Part shown: in pieces, positions 36,892 to 44,808 of the stretch
Position numbering within the stretch: position 1 is the first letter of the stretch
Layout: each line of letters opens with the position of its first letter
Made by a program: the position numbers and the translations under genes
Assembly (NCBI GenBank): GCA_001603275.1
Contig: LUYM01000029.1
Location: 1 to 64,000 of the forward strand
DNA: 64,000 nucleotides
Reading direction: 5' to 3'
DNA from: Actinomycetales bacterium Actino_02
GTDB lineage: Bacteria; Actinomycetota; Actinomycetes; Propionibacteriales; Propionibacteriaceae
The notes under the pieces: model-generated
Databases searched by the model: none
The model's input: the letters and a program-made list of their open reading frames with translations, nothing else
Told to the model about the DNA's origin: nothing

Positions 36892-37278
36892 ATGCCCGAC
36901 TTCATTACCCGTCCGGATGGGATGCCGCCGACCAATGGCTACAGCCACGTGGCGATCGCCCGCGGCGAGGTCGTGTTCATTTCCGGTCAGGTGCCGGTAG
37001 GTGCCGATGGTGAGGTGGTGTCAGCGGACCCGTCCGCCCAGGTCGAGCAGGTGTTCACGAACCTTCAGACGGCGCTGGCCGCGGCCGGGCTGGACTTCAG
37101 CCAGGTCGTGAAGCTCACCTACTACCTGGTGGATCTGGCCGACCTGGCCGCGGTCCGCGAAGTGCGGGATCGCTTCATCGATCCGGCCAGCCCGCCAGCC
37201 AGCTCGCTGATTCAGGTCGCCGGCCTGGTCAGCCCGGCCTTCCGAGTCGAGATCGACGCGGTCGCCTCCCGCAACTGA
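36892..37278 (+). CDS. RidA/YjgF-family protein, catalytic arginine not conserved
   Basis: 128 aa with the RidA fold (IARGEVVFISGQVPVGADG ... VFTNLQTALAAAGLDF). The helical/strand end reads 'PPASSLIQVAGL' where deaminases have 'PARSCVEVARL'. Ser104 thus replaces Arg105, which in E. coli RidA contacts the substrate carboxylate. It is therefore probably a Rid subgroup without 2-aminoacrylate deaminase activity. GGAGG before ATG 36892 fixes the start. dnaB is the upstream neighbour by chance or by shared transcription (44 bp gap). Confidence 0.85.
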   Translation: MPDFITRPDGMPPTNGYSHVAIARGEVVFISGQVPVGADGEVVSADPSAQVEQVFTNLQTALAAAGLDFSQVVKLTYYLVDLADLAAVREVRDRFIDPASPPASSLIQVAGLVSPAFRVEIDAVASRN

Positions 37279-37695
37279 CGACCGGGCCAGACCGAGGCTG
37301 CAGCCGGGTCAAACCCGAGTTTGGTACCCGATCTGACGGGGGCAACCACCGACTGTGAGTTCGAACCCGGTTTTGGTACCCAATGAGGTGTTCGGCAGCG
37401 GTCCGATCGGGTACCAAAACCGGGTTTCACGCATCAGCTCGGCGGCAAGAGCCACAGATGGGGACCAAAATCGGGTTTCAGTACAGGAGTGGCTAGGCGG
37501 AACCACGCCTGCGGCGACGCGGGCTTCAGGGACGGGCAGCAGCACCGCAGTGTCCATCCCAGCGGCGATGAAGTGCCGGTTCTACCAGGCAAAGATGACG
37601 GCTTCGCGTCAGCATCAGCATCCGAGGAGGCTTCCGGGCCGGCCCGACCGGATCTAGCGTTGGGCGTAGTCGTTCAGCGCAAACAAGGATTATCG
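37279..37695. other. Gene-free region with type 4 repeats
   Basis: About 420 bp. The first half carries the four type 4 repeats described separately. The second half contains no recognised gene, hairpin or RNA. A weak AAGGA lies before ATG 37696. Confidence 0.5.
37311..37479. repeat. Type 4 repeat cluster (AACCCGGTTTTGGTACCC-like), four copies
   Basis: Two copies run forward (37311-37332 and 37363-37384) and two are reversed (37406-37428 and 37458-37479). They share the core AACCCGGTTTTGGTACC. Copy starts are 52, 43 and 52 bp apart. The 2+2 inverted layout could fold into one large cruciform. No related copy was noticed elsewhere in the window. Confidence 0.8.
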
Positions 37696-39066
37696 ATGAC
37701 CACGAATGGGCAGATCTCCTTCTGGTGGCAGCAACTCGGCGTGCCCGAGCCCCGGCCGGCGTTGCCCGGCTCGATCGAAGCGGACGTGGCCATCGTCGGC
37801 GGCGGCTTCACCGGGCTGTGGACGGCCTACTACCTGAAGAAGGCCCAGCCGGACGCCCGGGTGGTGGTGCTCGAGCAGCGTTTCGCCGGCTTCGGGGCGT
37901 CCGGACGCAACGGCGGCTGGTGCGTGAACTCGATCACCGGCACCCGCGAGCAGTACCTGGACAGCCACGGCCGCGATGCCGTGATCGGTTTCCAGCAGGC
38001 GATGAACGACACCGTCGATGAGGTGATCGCGGTCGCCGCGGCCGAGGGGATCGACGCCGACATCATCAAGGGTGGCGAGTTCAACGTGGCCCGCACCCCG
38101 TCCCAGGTGGCCCGGATGAGGGCCTTCTACGAGACCGAGGCAGCCTGGCCGGTCACCGACATCGAGCTGCTGGACGCGTCCGAGGCCAGGGCCCGAATCA
38201 ACATCGACGGCGCCCTGGGCGCGACCTGGCAGCCGCACTGCGCGAAGGTGAACCCGGCCAAGCTGGCCCGCGGTCTGGCCCTGGCAGCCGAACGCGCCGG
38301 TGTCGTGATCTATGAGAACACCCTGGTCACCGAGATTTCGTCCGGGCTCGTCCGGACCGACCACGGGGACGTTCGGGCGCCGGCCATCGTCCGGGCCACC
38401 GAGGGCTTCACCGCCAATCTGCGTGGCGAGCACCGCACCTGGCTGCCGATGAACTCCTCGATGATCGTCACCGAGCCGCTGCCCAACTCGGTGTGGGAGC
38501 AGCTTGGCTGGACGTCCGGGCAGGTGCTGGGCGACTACGCCAACGTCTACATGTACGCCCAGCGGACCAGCGACGGCCGGATCGCCTTCGGCGGCCGCGG
38601 CGTCCCCTACCGCTACGGCTCGCGGGTGGACACCGACGGTGTCACCCAGCAGCGCACCATCGAGGCGCTGACCGACCTCCTGCGCAGCTTCTTCCCGGCC
38701 GCGTCCGGGGTCGGCATCGACCATGCCTGGGCTGGCGTGCTCGGCGTCCCCCGGGATTGGGCGGCCACAATCGGCTTCGATCACGGCACCGGGATGGGCT
38801 GGGCCGGCGGCTACGTGGGCACCGGAGTCGCCACCACCAACCTGGCCGGACGCACCCTCACCGACCTGATCCTGCGCCGCGACACCGACCTGGTCCGCCT
38901 ACCCTGGGTCGGCCGCAAGGTGCGCAAGTGGGAGCCCGAGCCGCTGCGCTGGCTGGGCGTCCAAGCGATGTACGCGGCCTACCGGATGGCTGATCGCCAG
39001 GAGCTGGACGGCCGGGCCACCACCTCGCCGATCGCCAAGTTCGCGGATCTGATTTCGGGACACTAG
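37696..39066 (+). CDS. FAD-dependent amine oxidase-like oxidoreductase (DAO family)
   Basis: 456 aa. FAD-binding GGGFTG at 35-40 within 'DVAIVGGGFTGLWTAYYL', then 'GFGASGRNGGWCVN' and a substrate domain; the C-terminal part contains 'GGYVGTGVATTNLAGRTL'. This layout is close to gamma-glutamylputrescine oxidase PuuB-type and glycine oxidase-like proteins. A link with the nearby agmatine-to-putrescine genes (9 kb away) is only a guess. ATG 37696 is chosen as the start near the domain boundary. Confidence 0.8.
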   Translation: MTTNGQISFWWQQLGVPEPRPALPGSIEADVAIVGGGFTGLWTAYYLKKAQPDARVVVLEQRFAGFGASGRNGGWCVNSITGTREQYLDSHGRDAVIGFQQAMNDTVDEVIAVAAAEGIDADIIKGGEFNVARTPSQVARMRAFYETEAAWPVTDIELLDASEARARINIDGALGATWQPHCAKVNPAKLARGLALAAERAGVVIYENTLVTEISSGLVRTDHGDVRAPAIVRATEGFTANLRGEHRTWLPMNSSMIVTEPLPNSVWEQLGWTSGQVLGDYANVYMYAQRTSDGRIAFGGRGVPYRYGSRVDTDGVTQQRTIEALTDLLRSFFPAASGVGIDHAWAGVLGVPRDWAATIGFDHGTGMGWAGGYVGTGVATTNLAGRTLTDLILRRDTDLVRLPWVGRKVRKWEPEPLRWLGVQAMYAAYRMADRQELDGRATTSPIAKFADLISGH

Positions 39067-39108
39067 CCGCCGACTCGGTGACGCGGGCTCCGCGTCGCCG
39101 AACCCCGG

Positions 39109-39171
39109 GGACGGTTCCATTACCGTCCATCCTTGTCGCAGCCTTTCGAGGGGACGGTTCCATTACCGTCC
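39109..39171 (+). repeat. REP doublet, plus orientation
   Basis: Two consensus units at 39109 and 39152, pitch 43 bp, with spacer ATCCTTGTCGCAG... The first unit starts 42 bases after the oxidoreductase stop. It faces the next doublet. Confidence 0.9.
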
Positions 39172-39235
39172 ACCCTTGTCAGGCGCGACCTGCCGAAGAC
39201 CGGCCGTAACACCCTCGACGGCCGATCTCGTCCGT

Positions 39236-39299
39236 GGACGGAAATGGAACCGTCCCCAGCACTGACCACGGGCTTCGGTGGACGGAAATGGAACCGTCC
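39236..39299 (-). repeat. REP doublet, minus orientation, TTT loop subfamily
   Basis: Units at 39236 and 39280, pitch 44 bp. Both read GGACGGTTCCATTTCCGTCC in REP orientation, a loop variant shared with 42361 and 46950. With the plus doublet at 39109 it forms an inverted quadruplet. Confidence 0.9.
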
Positions 39300-39426
39300 C
39301 CAAGACTGGGGCTTGCGACGGCTGAGGCGTGCACGTCCGGGTGGCACGAGCGGGTCGTAGCCACAGTCACCTCACAGGAAAGCCCAAGGGAACCGACGGG
39401 TCGATCCGGAATTCTTGTCTCGTCGA

Positions 39427-40860
39427 ATGATGGGAGTGAGCGTGGCCGTGGAGATCCAGCCGGCACCGACGAATGCCGCCCGGCAGAGCCTGGTGGCCGA
39501 TCGTCGGGTGTTGGTGCCGTCCTGGTGGCGCGACGCCGTCGGCCTGGCCGTCTGGGCCAGCATGCTGATCGTCACCGCCTTGTGGGTCAGCGGGGGCGGC
39601 CTACAAGCGTTGACGACCCCGGCCGGCGCCTTCACGACGCTGGGCCGGCTGACCGGCCTGATCTCGTCCGATCTGCTGCTGATTCAGGTGCTGCTGATGG
39701 CTCGGCTGCCGGTGGTCGAGCGCGTCTACGGCCAGGACGAGTTGGCCCGGCGGCACCGCCTGGTCGGCTTCTGGTCCTTCTCGCTGATGCTCGTCCACCT
39801 CGTTCTGATCACGATCGGCTATGCGCTGTCCGCGCACCTGAACGTGTTCGTCCAGTTCTGGGAGCTAGTCGTCGACTACCCGGGCATGCTCCTCGCCACC
39901 GCCGGCACCGCGCTGGTCGTTGCGGTCGCGATGACCAGCCTCCGGGCGGCCCGACGCAAGCTGCGCTACGAGTCCTGGCATCTGCTTCACCTGTACGCCT
40001 ACCTCGGCGTCGGCTTGGCGCTGCCGCACCAGCTGTGGACCGGGCAGGAGTTCCTGAACAACGCGTGGGCCACCATCTACTGGTGGGGGCTGTGGATCGC
40101 CGCCGTGGTGGCGATCGTCGGCTGGCGACTGCTCGTCCCGCTGTATCGCAGCCTGCGCCACGACCTGCGGGTGGCCGGCGTCCGCCGGGAGAACGCGGAC
40201 GTAATCAGCGTGCTCATCTCCGGACGCGACCTCGACCAGCTGCCGGTCGCAGCCGGTCAGTTCTTCAACTGGCGCTTCCTCGGACGCCCCGGCTGGACCC
40301 GGGCCCATCCCTACTCGCTGTCGGCGGCCCCGAACGGACGCAGTCTGCGGATCACCGTCAAGGATCTTGGCGACGGCAGCCACGAGCTGGCCACGGTGAA
40401 GCCGGGCAGCCGAGTGCTGATCGAGGGGCCGTACGGACGGCTGCACGCCGGCGTCCGAACCCAGCGAAAGGTGCTGCTGCTGGGGGCCGGGATCGGGATC
40501 ACCCCGCTGCGGGCGCTGCTGGAGGAACTGCCGCAGGCCCCGGGCGATGTCACCCTCATCTACCGGGCTGGCAGCGATGACGAGCTGGTGCTGTCCGACG
40601 AGATCGAGAAGCTGGCCGCCGCCCGCGGCGCGCGGGTGTTCTTCGTGGCCGGCCACCGCCGCCGGGAACGCAACTCCTGGCTGCCGACCAGCGCCGGCAC
40701 CCTCAGTGACACCGACGGCCTGCGCCAACTGGTGCCCGATATTGCCGAGCACGACGTCTACCTGTGCGGCGCGGACGCCTGGATGGACGCCGCCGCCAAG
40801 GCCGCCCGCGACTGCGGAGTGCCGTCCGACCGCATCCATTCCGAACGCTTCAGCTGGTAA
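39427..40860 (+). CDS. Ferric reductase-like membrane flavocytochrome (FAD/NAD domains)
   Basis: 477 aa. Six transmembrane helices (about 35-230) of the ferric reductase-like domain, with histidines in helices 3 and 5 (HRLVGFWSFSLMLVHLVLI and 'ESWHLLHLYAYLGVGLALPHQ') as likely heme ligands. An FAD-binding domain 'HPYSLSAAPNGRSLRI' and an NAD-binding site 'VLLLGAGIGITPLRALL' follow. It moves electrons from NAD(P)H across the membrane, probably to the FMN protein encoded next. The start is uncertain: ATG 39427 is preferred, with ATG 39430 and GTGs at 39436 and 39442 as alternatives. An ApbE flavin transferase completes the set. Confidence 0.85.
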   Translation: MMGVSVAVEIQPAPTNAARQSLVADRRVLVPSWWRDAVGLAVWASMLIVTALWVSGGGLQALTTPAGAFTTLGRLTGLISSDLLLIQVLLMARLPVVERVYGQDELARRHRLVGFWSFSLMLVHLVLITIGYALSAHLNVFVQFWELVVDYPGMLLATAGTALVVAVAMTSLRAARRKLRYESWHLLHLYAYLGVGLALPHQLWTGQEFLNNAWATIYWWGLWIAAVVAIVGWRLLVPLYRSLRHDLRVAGVRRENADVISVLISGRDLDQLPVAAGQFFNWRFLGRPGWTRAHPYSLSAAPNGRSLRITVKDLGDGSHELATVKPGSRVLIEGPYGRLHAGVRTQRKVLLLGAGIGITPLRALLEELPQAPGDVTLIYRAGSDDELVLSDEIEKLAAARGARVFFVAGHRRRERNSWLPTSAGTLSDTDGLRQLVPDIAEHDVYLCGADAWMDAAAKAARDCGVPSDRIHSERFSW

Positions 40861-40873
40861 CCCAGGAGTCCTC

Positions 40874-41404
40874 ATGCGCAAGATCGTCATCGCCATCGCC
40901 AGCACCGTGAGTGCACTGGTGCTGCTGTTCAGTTACCACACGTCCACGAACTCCGAGGCCGCCAAGGAGTCGACCACCGACACCAGCGGTGGCACCGGTA
41001 ACTCCGGTTCGACAACGCCGAACTCCGGAAGCTCGGGCTCCTCAAGCTCGTCGGGAAGCTCGTCGAGTTCGTCAGATAGCTCATCCTCGCCGGGCACGTC
41101 CAACTCCGGAAGCTCGAGTGCTGCCGACGGCACCTACACCGGCGACGCGGCGGCGACCCGCTACGGGAACGTCCAGGTGCAGATCACCGTCTCCGGCGGC
41201 CAGATCACGGGGGCCGAGGCGATCGACTACCCGAACAACGACCGGCACGACCAGCAGATCAACGCCTACGCCATTCCGATCCTGAACTCTGAGGCGGTCG
41301 CCGCGCAGAGCGCCAACATCGATGCGGTCTCCGGCGCCACGGTGACCAGCGACGGCTACATCACCTCGTTGCAGTCGGCGATCGACGCCGCCCACCTGGG
41401 ATGA
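40874..41404 (+). CDS. FMN-binding extracytoplasmic protein
   Basis: 176 aa. N-terminal transmembrane anchor (3-20), then a Ser/Gly-rich linker (38-84), then an FMN_bind domain. The flavinylation site is visible as SGATVT at 153-158, with Thr156 the probable FMN attachment residue. The anchor and linker place the domain outside the cell. It lies 13 bp after the flavocytochrome gene and overlaps the ApbE gene by 4 bp. Inference: it is the electron acceptor of the membrane reductase after ApbE attaches FMN. Confidence 0.88.
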   Translation: MRKIVIAIASTVSALVLLFSYHTSTNSEAAKESTTDTSGGTGNSGSTTPNSGSSGSSSSSGSSSSSSDSSSSPGTSNSGSSSAADGTYTGDAAATRYGNVQVQITVSGGQITGAEAIDYPNNDRHDQQINAYAIPILNSEAVAAQSANIDAVSGATVTSDGYITSLQSAIDAAHLG

Positions 41405-42213
41405 GCGCGACGATGAGTCCGGCGGTCACCACCGAGCTGCCGCGGCGGGCCTGGGTGGCTCAGGTGATGAGCCTGCCAATCAGCATTCATCTACGTGGGC
41501 CGGTCGCCGAGTCGGGCGAGGCGTCCGACCTTGTCGCCGAGGCTTTCGACGACCTGCGGGCCGATGAGGATCTGTTCAGCATCTGGCGTCCGGACAGCCC
41601 TGCCAGCCGCGTCCGCGATGGACGCGATCAGCTCGCCGATGCCCCGCCGCGGCTGCGCCAGGTGGCCGCCCTGTGCGAGCTGGCCGGCCAGCGCACCGGC
41701 GGCGCCTTCTCGGCGTGGCTGCCGGACGCGTCCGGCGTGCTGCGATTCAACCCGACCGGCCTGGTCAAGGGCTGGGCCGTGCAGCAGGCCTTCGAGCGGT
41801 TGGCGGCGCGGCTGCGTCGCTTCGGCGCCCACGACCTGATGATCAACGCCGGCGGCGACATCGCCGCGGCCTGTGCGCGCACCGACACCCCGGATTGGGT
41901 GATCGCCATCGAGGACCCGCGCGATCGCAGCCGGATGCTCCGATCGCTGCATCTGCGCACCGGAGCGGTGGCCACGTCCGGCACGGCGGCTCGTGGCGCA
42001 CACATCGTCGACCCGGCCACCGGACGTCCGGTTGAGTCGCTGTTGTCGGCCACCGTGATCGGCCCCGAGCTGACTTGGGCGGACGTCTATGCCACCGCGG
42101 CCTTCGTGAAAGGCCCGTCCGCTGTCGGCTGGCTGGCCACTCTGGACCAGCATGCGGCCCTCCTGGTCGAGCCGGACGGACGACTGGTCACCGTCGGCGC
42201 CCCCACCCACTGA
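41401..42213 (+). CDS. apbE: ApbE-family FAD:protein FMN transferase
   Basis: 270 aa. Features of the flavin transferase family are seen: 'PTGLVKGWAVQQAFE', 'LMINAGGDIAAA' and the late 'VATSGTAARGAHIVDPATGRPV'. It attaches FMN to Thr/Ser of SGAT motifs, here most likely in the preceding protein. It lacks an obvious lipobox or signal peptide, so localisation is unclear. The start overlaps the previous stop (ATGA). Confidence 0.9.
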   Translation: MSATMSPAVTTELPRRAWVAQVMSLPISIHLRGPVAESGEASDLVAEAFDDLRADEDLFSIWRPDSPASRVRDGRDQLADAPPRLRQVAALCELAGQRTGGAFSAWLPDASGVLRFNPTGLVKGWAVQQAFERLAARLRRFGAHDLMINAGGDIAAACARTDTPDWVIAIEDPRDRSRMLRSLHLRTGAVATSGTAARGAHIVDPATGRPVESLLSATVIGPELTWADVYATAAFVKGPSAVGWLATLDQHAALLVEPDGRLVTVGAPTH

Positions 42214-42260: not shown

Positions 42261-42360
42261 GGTACGGGCGTCGGCAACCAGGTCGGGCGTTCGACGGGGT
42301 GCGAGCGAGGGTTTACTGATTCCGTCCGTGGGTGACGGGCCCTAGGCTGGGCGATCAGCC

Positions 42361-42423
42361 GGACGGAAATGGGACCGTCCCCACGAAACCCGCGGACCAG
42401 GGTGGACGGTAATGGAACCGTCC
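42361..42423 (-). repeat. REP doublet in the leader of the UvrA paralogue
   Basis: Units at 42361 (TTT loop subfamily with one extra change, TCCCATTT) and 42404 (consensus), pitch 43 bp. It is the REP cluster closest to a start codon, 18 bases from ATG 42442. Confidence 0.85.
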
Positions 42424-42441
42424 CCGATAACAGGGGGACCG

Positions 42442-44808
<2,367 letters not shown>

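Follow-up and report, generated by a model that had tools for sequence, protein, structure and literature searches.

Gene clusters that pair a membrane cytochrome of the PF01794 family with the machinery for covalent flavinylation were described as MsrQ-like by Meheust and coworkers (2021, eLife, PMC8238504), who counted 1797 of them, mostly in Actinobacteria. A cluster of this type is defined by a PF01794 gene within five genes of a gene for ApbE or an FMN_bind protein, and a cluster was retained when SignalP 5 predicted a signal peptide or a lipidation site for one or more of its target genes. Most members have a C-terminal PF00175 domain, some clusters include VIT1, for which assimilatory iron reduction was proposed, and the passages of PMC8238504 on MsrQ-like clusters do not discuss ApbE proteins without a signal peptide. 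Related parts are known from other bacteria. SaFMN3 of Streptomyces azureus has three FMN domains, one of which was crystallised with covalent FMN (PMC10339131; 8P2A), while the EET system of Listeria (EetA/B, FmnA/B, PplA and Ndh2; PMC9973259) includes a surface protein with covalent FMN in a Gram-positive cell, together with an ApbE that carries a lipoprotein signal. SpNOX of Streptococcus pneumoniae (8QT6, 8QTA, 8QQ7) combines six transmembrane helices and two hemes with an FNR domain.

The window analysed here, a stretch of 64,000 nucleotides from Actinomycetales bacterium Actino_02, contains an intact three-gene operon on the + strand (39415-42213), in which an ORF scan found all reading frames open and in order. 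The genes encode a NOX/ferric-reductase-like flavocytochrome (39415..40860), a membrane-anchored FMN-binding protein of 176 residues (40874..41404) and an ApbE-family FAD:protein FMN transferase of 270 residues that lacks a signal peptide or lipobox (41401..42213). The first two genes are 13 bp apart, and the stop codon of the second overlaps the start codon of the third by 4 bp (ATGA). An earlier note on this DNA had placed a flavocytochrome, an anchored FMN protein and ApbE in one operon with short gaps and overlaps, which these distances and the Pfam matches bear out. Its assignment of the operon to flavinylation-based transmembrane electron transfer also holds, as the parts and their order are those of the MsrQ-like system as PMC8238504 describes it: the PF01794 gene adjoins the FMN_bind and ApbE genes, the [S/T]GA[S/T] motif is present, and the cytochrome ends in PF00175. 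The gene content is no different from that of the published clusters, some of which have VIT1, whereas the window copy has no adjoining VIT1. Both the observation and its reading are sound, and the system is of a known kind that is common in Actinobacteria. The arrangement is not due to chance, since all three genes occur together in 65 of the best 80 of at least 532 relatives and the whole neighbourhood is kept in the sister species (G057). Neither sigma-70 promoter-like sites nor terminators were found beyond chance.

A search of the organism's own genome found a single FMN_bind protein, that of the operon, and two ApbE genes, the operon copy and one further. The latter belongs to a second cluster (L146:5645-7499; C6 of the genome, ~218.6-220.5 kb) that encodes an exported-looking, Ser/Thr-rich protein of 105 residues without an FMN_bind domain and a PF01794 membrane protein without an NAD domain; the ApbE of this cluster likewise lacks a signal peptide.

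The flavocytochrome reading frame spans 481 residues from TTG 39415, but its start is uncertain, the candidates being this TTG, ATG 39427 (the start in the earlier note) and GTG 39442, which has GGGAG upstream. Pfam places PF01794 at residues 80-201 (E 2.9e-14) and the C-terminal NAD-binding domain PF00175 at residues 355-461 (E 6.3e-8, above cut-off), and the protein contains an FAD motif (HPYSLS) and an NAD(P) motif (GAGIGITP). The heme histidines H114, H128, H192 and H205 never vary in an alignment of 41 flavocytochromes, the window protein and 40 relatives from named genomes (positions 105, 119, 183 and 196 in the GTG-start numbering of that alignment). They are spaced 14 and 13 residues apart, as are the heme histidines of NOX2. 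An AlphaFold2 model (pLDDT 85.9, pTM 0.83) has six long helices (28-50, 60-87, 98-131, 147-172, 178-200 and 208-240 in GTG numbering) and an FNR domain, with high confidence except at the N-terminus and at ~140-210, where TM4-TM5 are low to moderate (block means 50-77). Alignment, model and fold search together thus find the structural traits of a NOX: six transmembrane helices, two histidine pairs and an FNR domain.

When this model was compared with the PDB by Foldseek, SpNOX entries occupied ranks 1-3, and NOX5, DUOX1 and phagocyte NOX (NOX2) were among the matches further down, although identity to SpNOX is only ~19%. On this basis the main role of the flavocytochrome could conceivably be that of a bacterial NADPH oxidase, one that produces superoxide or uses up O2 and whose O2-reactive outer end is the FMN protein, and the relative SaFMN3, at -184 mV, can use O2 (PMC12052999). 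Ferric reductases have the same fold, however, and the partner and ApbE, conserved in 65 of the best 80 of at least 532 relatives, would be superfluous in such an enzyme. To our knowledge no NOX enzyme depends on a flavinylated partner outside, which counts against the oxidase, and we know of none for SpNOX; we consider an oxidase fairly doubtful. The description of the protein as ferric-reductase-like in the earlier note holds for fold and family. It is the name of a fold and does not settle the terminal acceptor, none being encoded in the operon.

The FMN-binding protein consists of a transmembrane helix (residues 2-22), a disordered Ser/Gly/Thr linker (~23-84) and an FMN_bind domain (86-172; PF04205 at 98-170, E 3.3e-9), and its model shows the same helix, a linker of low confidence and a confident domain. 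The motif D150-xx-SGA-T156 fits ApbE targets. The SGATVT flavinylation motif and acceptor Thr156 previously proposed are confirmed by the sequence DAVSGATVTS, in which the predicted covalent-FMN site is residue 156 (codon 41339..41341), and S153, G154, A155, T156 and T158 are invariant in 44/44 aligned FMN proteins. The closest solved structure is 8P2A, domain 2 of SaFMN3 and the best fold match of the domain (E 1.1e-10, 60% identity over 89 columns, TM-score 0.94 over target); SaFMN3 is also matched by sequence (E 1e-23), although the window protein has one FMN domain where SaFMN3 has three.

Conservation is much stronger in the anchor helix than in the linker. T11 and L18 are invariant in the 44 aligned proteins, L17, F19, Y21, T23 and S24 are conserved in at least 90%, and the relatives share a recurring LLFSYxTS at the end of the helix; linker length varies from 18 to 133 residues (median 54) among 78 relatives, these being the best 80 of at least 532 minus two without an aligned start. 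Because the helix is conserved while the linker is not, the sequences suggest that the helix docks on the flavocytochrome and that the linker serves as a leash. The same 78 relatives bear on topology. Their N-tails contain RR, KK, RK or KR in 74 cases (RR in 41, KK in 15) and have a mean charge of +2.9, against -0.35 after the helix, and the N-tail is the more positive flank in 76/78. An N-terminal hydrophobic helix is present in the window protein in both sequence and model, and neither it nor any of the 78 relatives contains a cysteine, so the window protein is not lipidated. Export of a folded, flavinylated domain by Tat was rejected in view of the 15 relatives with KK. Tat is not expected to accept a KK N-tail.

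The FMN domain is predicted to lie outside the cell because of an N-in helix with a charged N-tail. The earlier note had reached the same position from the Ser/Gly linker; the outside location stands, on the N-tail charge, while the linker is not a reason for it. Alternatively, the FMN domain could be cytosolic and act as a relay at the inner face, in which case an ApbE without a signal would pose no puzzle, ApbE being predicted to reside in the cytosol, where FAD is made. This arrangement is very improbable given the charge distribution in 76 of the 78 relatives, which predicts the domain outside, and it would set the FMN beside the FAD domain and leave the transmembrane hemes without a partner.

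From the gene set, the motifs, the fold and the conserved transmembrane helix, which come from sequence and models, we infer the electron path and its direction, the flavinylation, the acceptor and the use. In all likelihood the operon is a self-contained transmembrane relay that runs from NAD(P)H through FAD, two hemes and a tethered FMN to an acceptor outside. The cytosolic FNR-type domain would pass two electrons from NAD(P)H to FAD, and two b hemes, the inner one bound by H114/H192 and the outer one by H128/H205, would carry them singly across the membrane. FMN attached covalently to Thr156 by ApbE, which would take it from FAD, may then accept the electrons on the outside, with the flexible linker letting the domain move back and forth between the outer heme and cell-wall acceptors. 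This relay resembles Listeria EET in outline, but the donor proposed here is an NAD(P)H-linked di-heme flavocytochrome. In Listeria, the donor is Ndh2 and quinone. No published functional test of the three-gene operon was found among titles and the beginnings of abstracts.

The operon is widespread and varies in position. The best 80 of at least 532 confirmed relatives from a genome scan with the FMN family are nearly all Actinomycetota by title (L076 is labelled Acidobacteria), and among these 80 the flavocytochrome lies within 400 bp upstream of the FMN gene in 77 and ApbE within 400 bp downstream in 67. An adjacent ApbE is absent in 13 of them, and contig ends explain some of all the misses (L084, L105). 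Within the genus, a flavocytochrome match occurs in 12 of 30 genomes and the full operon in 10 of those 12, the organism's own included, at an identity of ~69% or more; of the others, G068, which lacks an FMN match, has a homologue at 41-42% next to a weak ApbE, and L036 has a match at 26%. The FMN protein is present in 18 of 57 genomes, or 13 of 29 genera, in a sample of the family. Genomes of the genus carry the operon at three positions that are unrelated to one another, so it has moved, or been lost and gained, more than once.

Intergenic copies of a hairpin repeat, GGGGACGGTTCCATTACCGTCCA, surround the window operon (for example at 39107-39301 and 42360-42425). There are 20 between 15579 and 46971 where none would be expected, usually paired 43-44 bp apart and often facing each other. 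Exact cores number 173 in the genome (reversed control, 0); the sister species G057 has only eight, and 20 of the 30 genus genomes have none. The repeat looks like a recent REP/REPIN expansion. A Y1 (IS200-like) transposase (PF01797; 17851-18639, - strand), of which a second copy is found at C29:77264, is flanked on both sides by GGGGACGGTTCCATTACCGTCCA repeats and is likely to be a REP-associated tyrosine transposase that spreads them. Downstream of the operon lies a UvrA-like protein of 798 residues (42412-44808, + strand; 667 bits, below the UvrA cut-off of 729.8), with relatives of at least 70% identity in most of the 30 genus genomes, beside another UvrA-like gene. Upstream are an FAD-dependent oxidoreductase (DAO; 37693-39066, + strand), whose best NCBIfam match, an aminophosphonate oxidoreductase, is below cut-off, and its neighbour, a RidA-family protein (36892-37278).

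No flanking gene is common to all operon loci of the genus in a comparison of 15 loci, and the neighbourhood of the window copy therefore does not point to an acceptor. A Pfam search with nine ORFs from the flanks of relatives left five unmatched and identified the other four, which come from different clades, as a sigma factor, a sensor kinase, a response regulator and VIT1. A homologue of a two-component regulator or kinase lies no more than 1 kb away at 32 of the best 80 of at least 532 loci, but not at the window copy, and all 36 regulator matches lie within 1.8 kb of the relatives' operons. A Streptomyces goshikiensis plasmid carries a two-component pair with the operon, and a Microbacterium plasmid carries the operon with both VIT1 and such a pair. 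The two-component genes suggest that the operon is controlled by an outside signal in the relatives that have them.

The operon encodes no acceptor, transporter or terminal reductase. The favoured use would be to reduce ferric iron so that it can be taken up in the ferrous form, and O2, quinones and other oxidants are possible. Ferric iron is the leading guess because VIT1 stands beside some relatives, among them L056 and the Microbacterium plasmid (it is within 1 kb in four of the best 80 of at least 532), and because VIT1 and FeoB are encoded in the organism's own genome, away from the operon. The association is a weak one, as the operon has no acceptor gene and occupies three unrelated positions in the genus. 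The consensus of a DtxR/IdeR-type box had no match in the window at up to three mismatches. The system might instead supply a repair enzyme or reductase that acts outside the cell and has its gene elsewhere, much as MsrQ feeds MsrP. PF01794 is common to MsrQ (PMC8238504), matches below cut-off include MsrQ along with many FNR-type reductases (for NCBIfam MsrQ, E 4.5e-9, weak and far below cut-off), and the window operon has no iron gene beside it, but no gene family is common to all flanks in the 15 loci, and we regard this use as unlikely.

The point that the earlier note missed, and which deserves specialist attention, is the location of ApbE. The window ApbE is a clear member of its family (PF02424, E 1.2e-34, 120 bits, above cut-off), and K123, the GGD at 151-153, H201, D228 and T232 are invariant in 35/35 aligned proteins. 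We take G151, G152, D153, D228 and T232 to be metal- and FAD-binding residues. The protein begins ~20 residues ahead of its core, contains no hydrophobic segment beyond that core, and has no signal peptide or lipobox by a rule that requires a mean hydropathy of 1.8 over 15 residues, a rule that detects the signals of E. coli ApbE (1.99, with FVGC) and Hymenobacter ApbE. No stretch reaches 1.8 in the first 45 residues, and the maximum of 1.31 falls inside the core. A signal hidden by a wrong start was rejected, as no in-frame start lies between the preceding stop and 41401.

The same pattern extends to relatives. None of the 67 operon ApbEs among the best 80 of at least 532 relatives has a convincing signal peptide: in 61 no stretch ahead of the core reaches 1.2, and four lie between 1.2 and 1.8 (L090, L104, L109 and L139, the highest at 1.73). 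Two further flags were rejected, L115 because its stretch lies in a distant upstream part of the reading that overlaps the FMN gene, and L140 because its MSAC is not accompanied by a hydrophobic run. Inspection by eye of 27 family ApbEs found no signal peptide (starts are doubtful in L054 and L056). Of eight non-actinobacterial plasmid ApbEs chosen by similarity, only that of Hymenobacter has a clear hydropathy signal; the lipobox rule flags the Alicyclobacillus protein, which lacks a hydrophobic run. By these sequence rules, an ApbE without a signal is common to the actinobacterial group sampled and to some plasmid ApbEs outside it, and is not special to Actinobacteria.

ApbE and its substrate domain, the one predicted cytosolic and the other predicted outside, thus appear to be on opposite sides of the membrane, an arrangement at odds with straightforward flavinylation outside the cell. 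Most ApbEs are exported, and FAD is then needed outside (PMC12052999, PMC9973259). Listeria has EetB, whereas an EetB-type FAD exporter (PF07456) was found in none of 54 family genomes, the organism's own included (controls, 2/14 positive). Because ApbE has no signal and no EetB was found, flavinylation may precede export. It is possible, though tentatively so and at somewhat less than even chance, that a cytosolic ApbE, coupled to its substrate by translation, flavinylates the unfolded or nascent chain and that the FMN domain is then exported via Sec. Published evidence points both ways. In the Flavin-tag method, a soluble co-expressed ApbE modifies a short terminal peptide, DxxxGA[T/S], in the cell (PMC10722498), so the reaction does not require the native fold of the domain, and DAVSGAT, the motif in the window, agrees with this peptide. 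In Salmonella, a cytosolic ApbE is reported not to complement (PMC12052999), which counts against cytosolic action on an exported target. In a literature search on flavinylation before export and on ApbE without a signal peptide, the review PMC12052999, which mentions a cytosolic Klebsiella ApbE, was the only open-licence PMC article found to pair export phrases with ApbE.

The side of the membrane on which ApbE acts determines the route of FAD supply and whether Sec can translocate a covalently bound flavin, and an operon with the sole FMN_bind gene of its genome, in which no EetB was found, makes a clean test case. Flavinylation before export, if true, would make an FAD exporter unnecessary and would explain why the ApbEs of these operons lack a signal peptide despite the export helix on their substrates.
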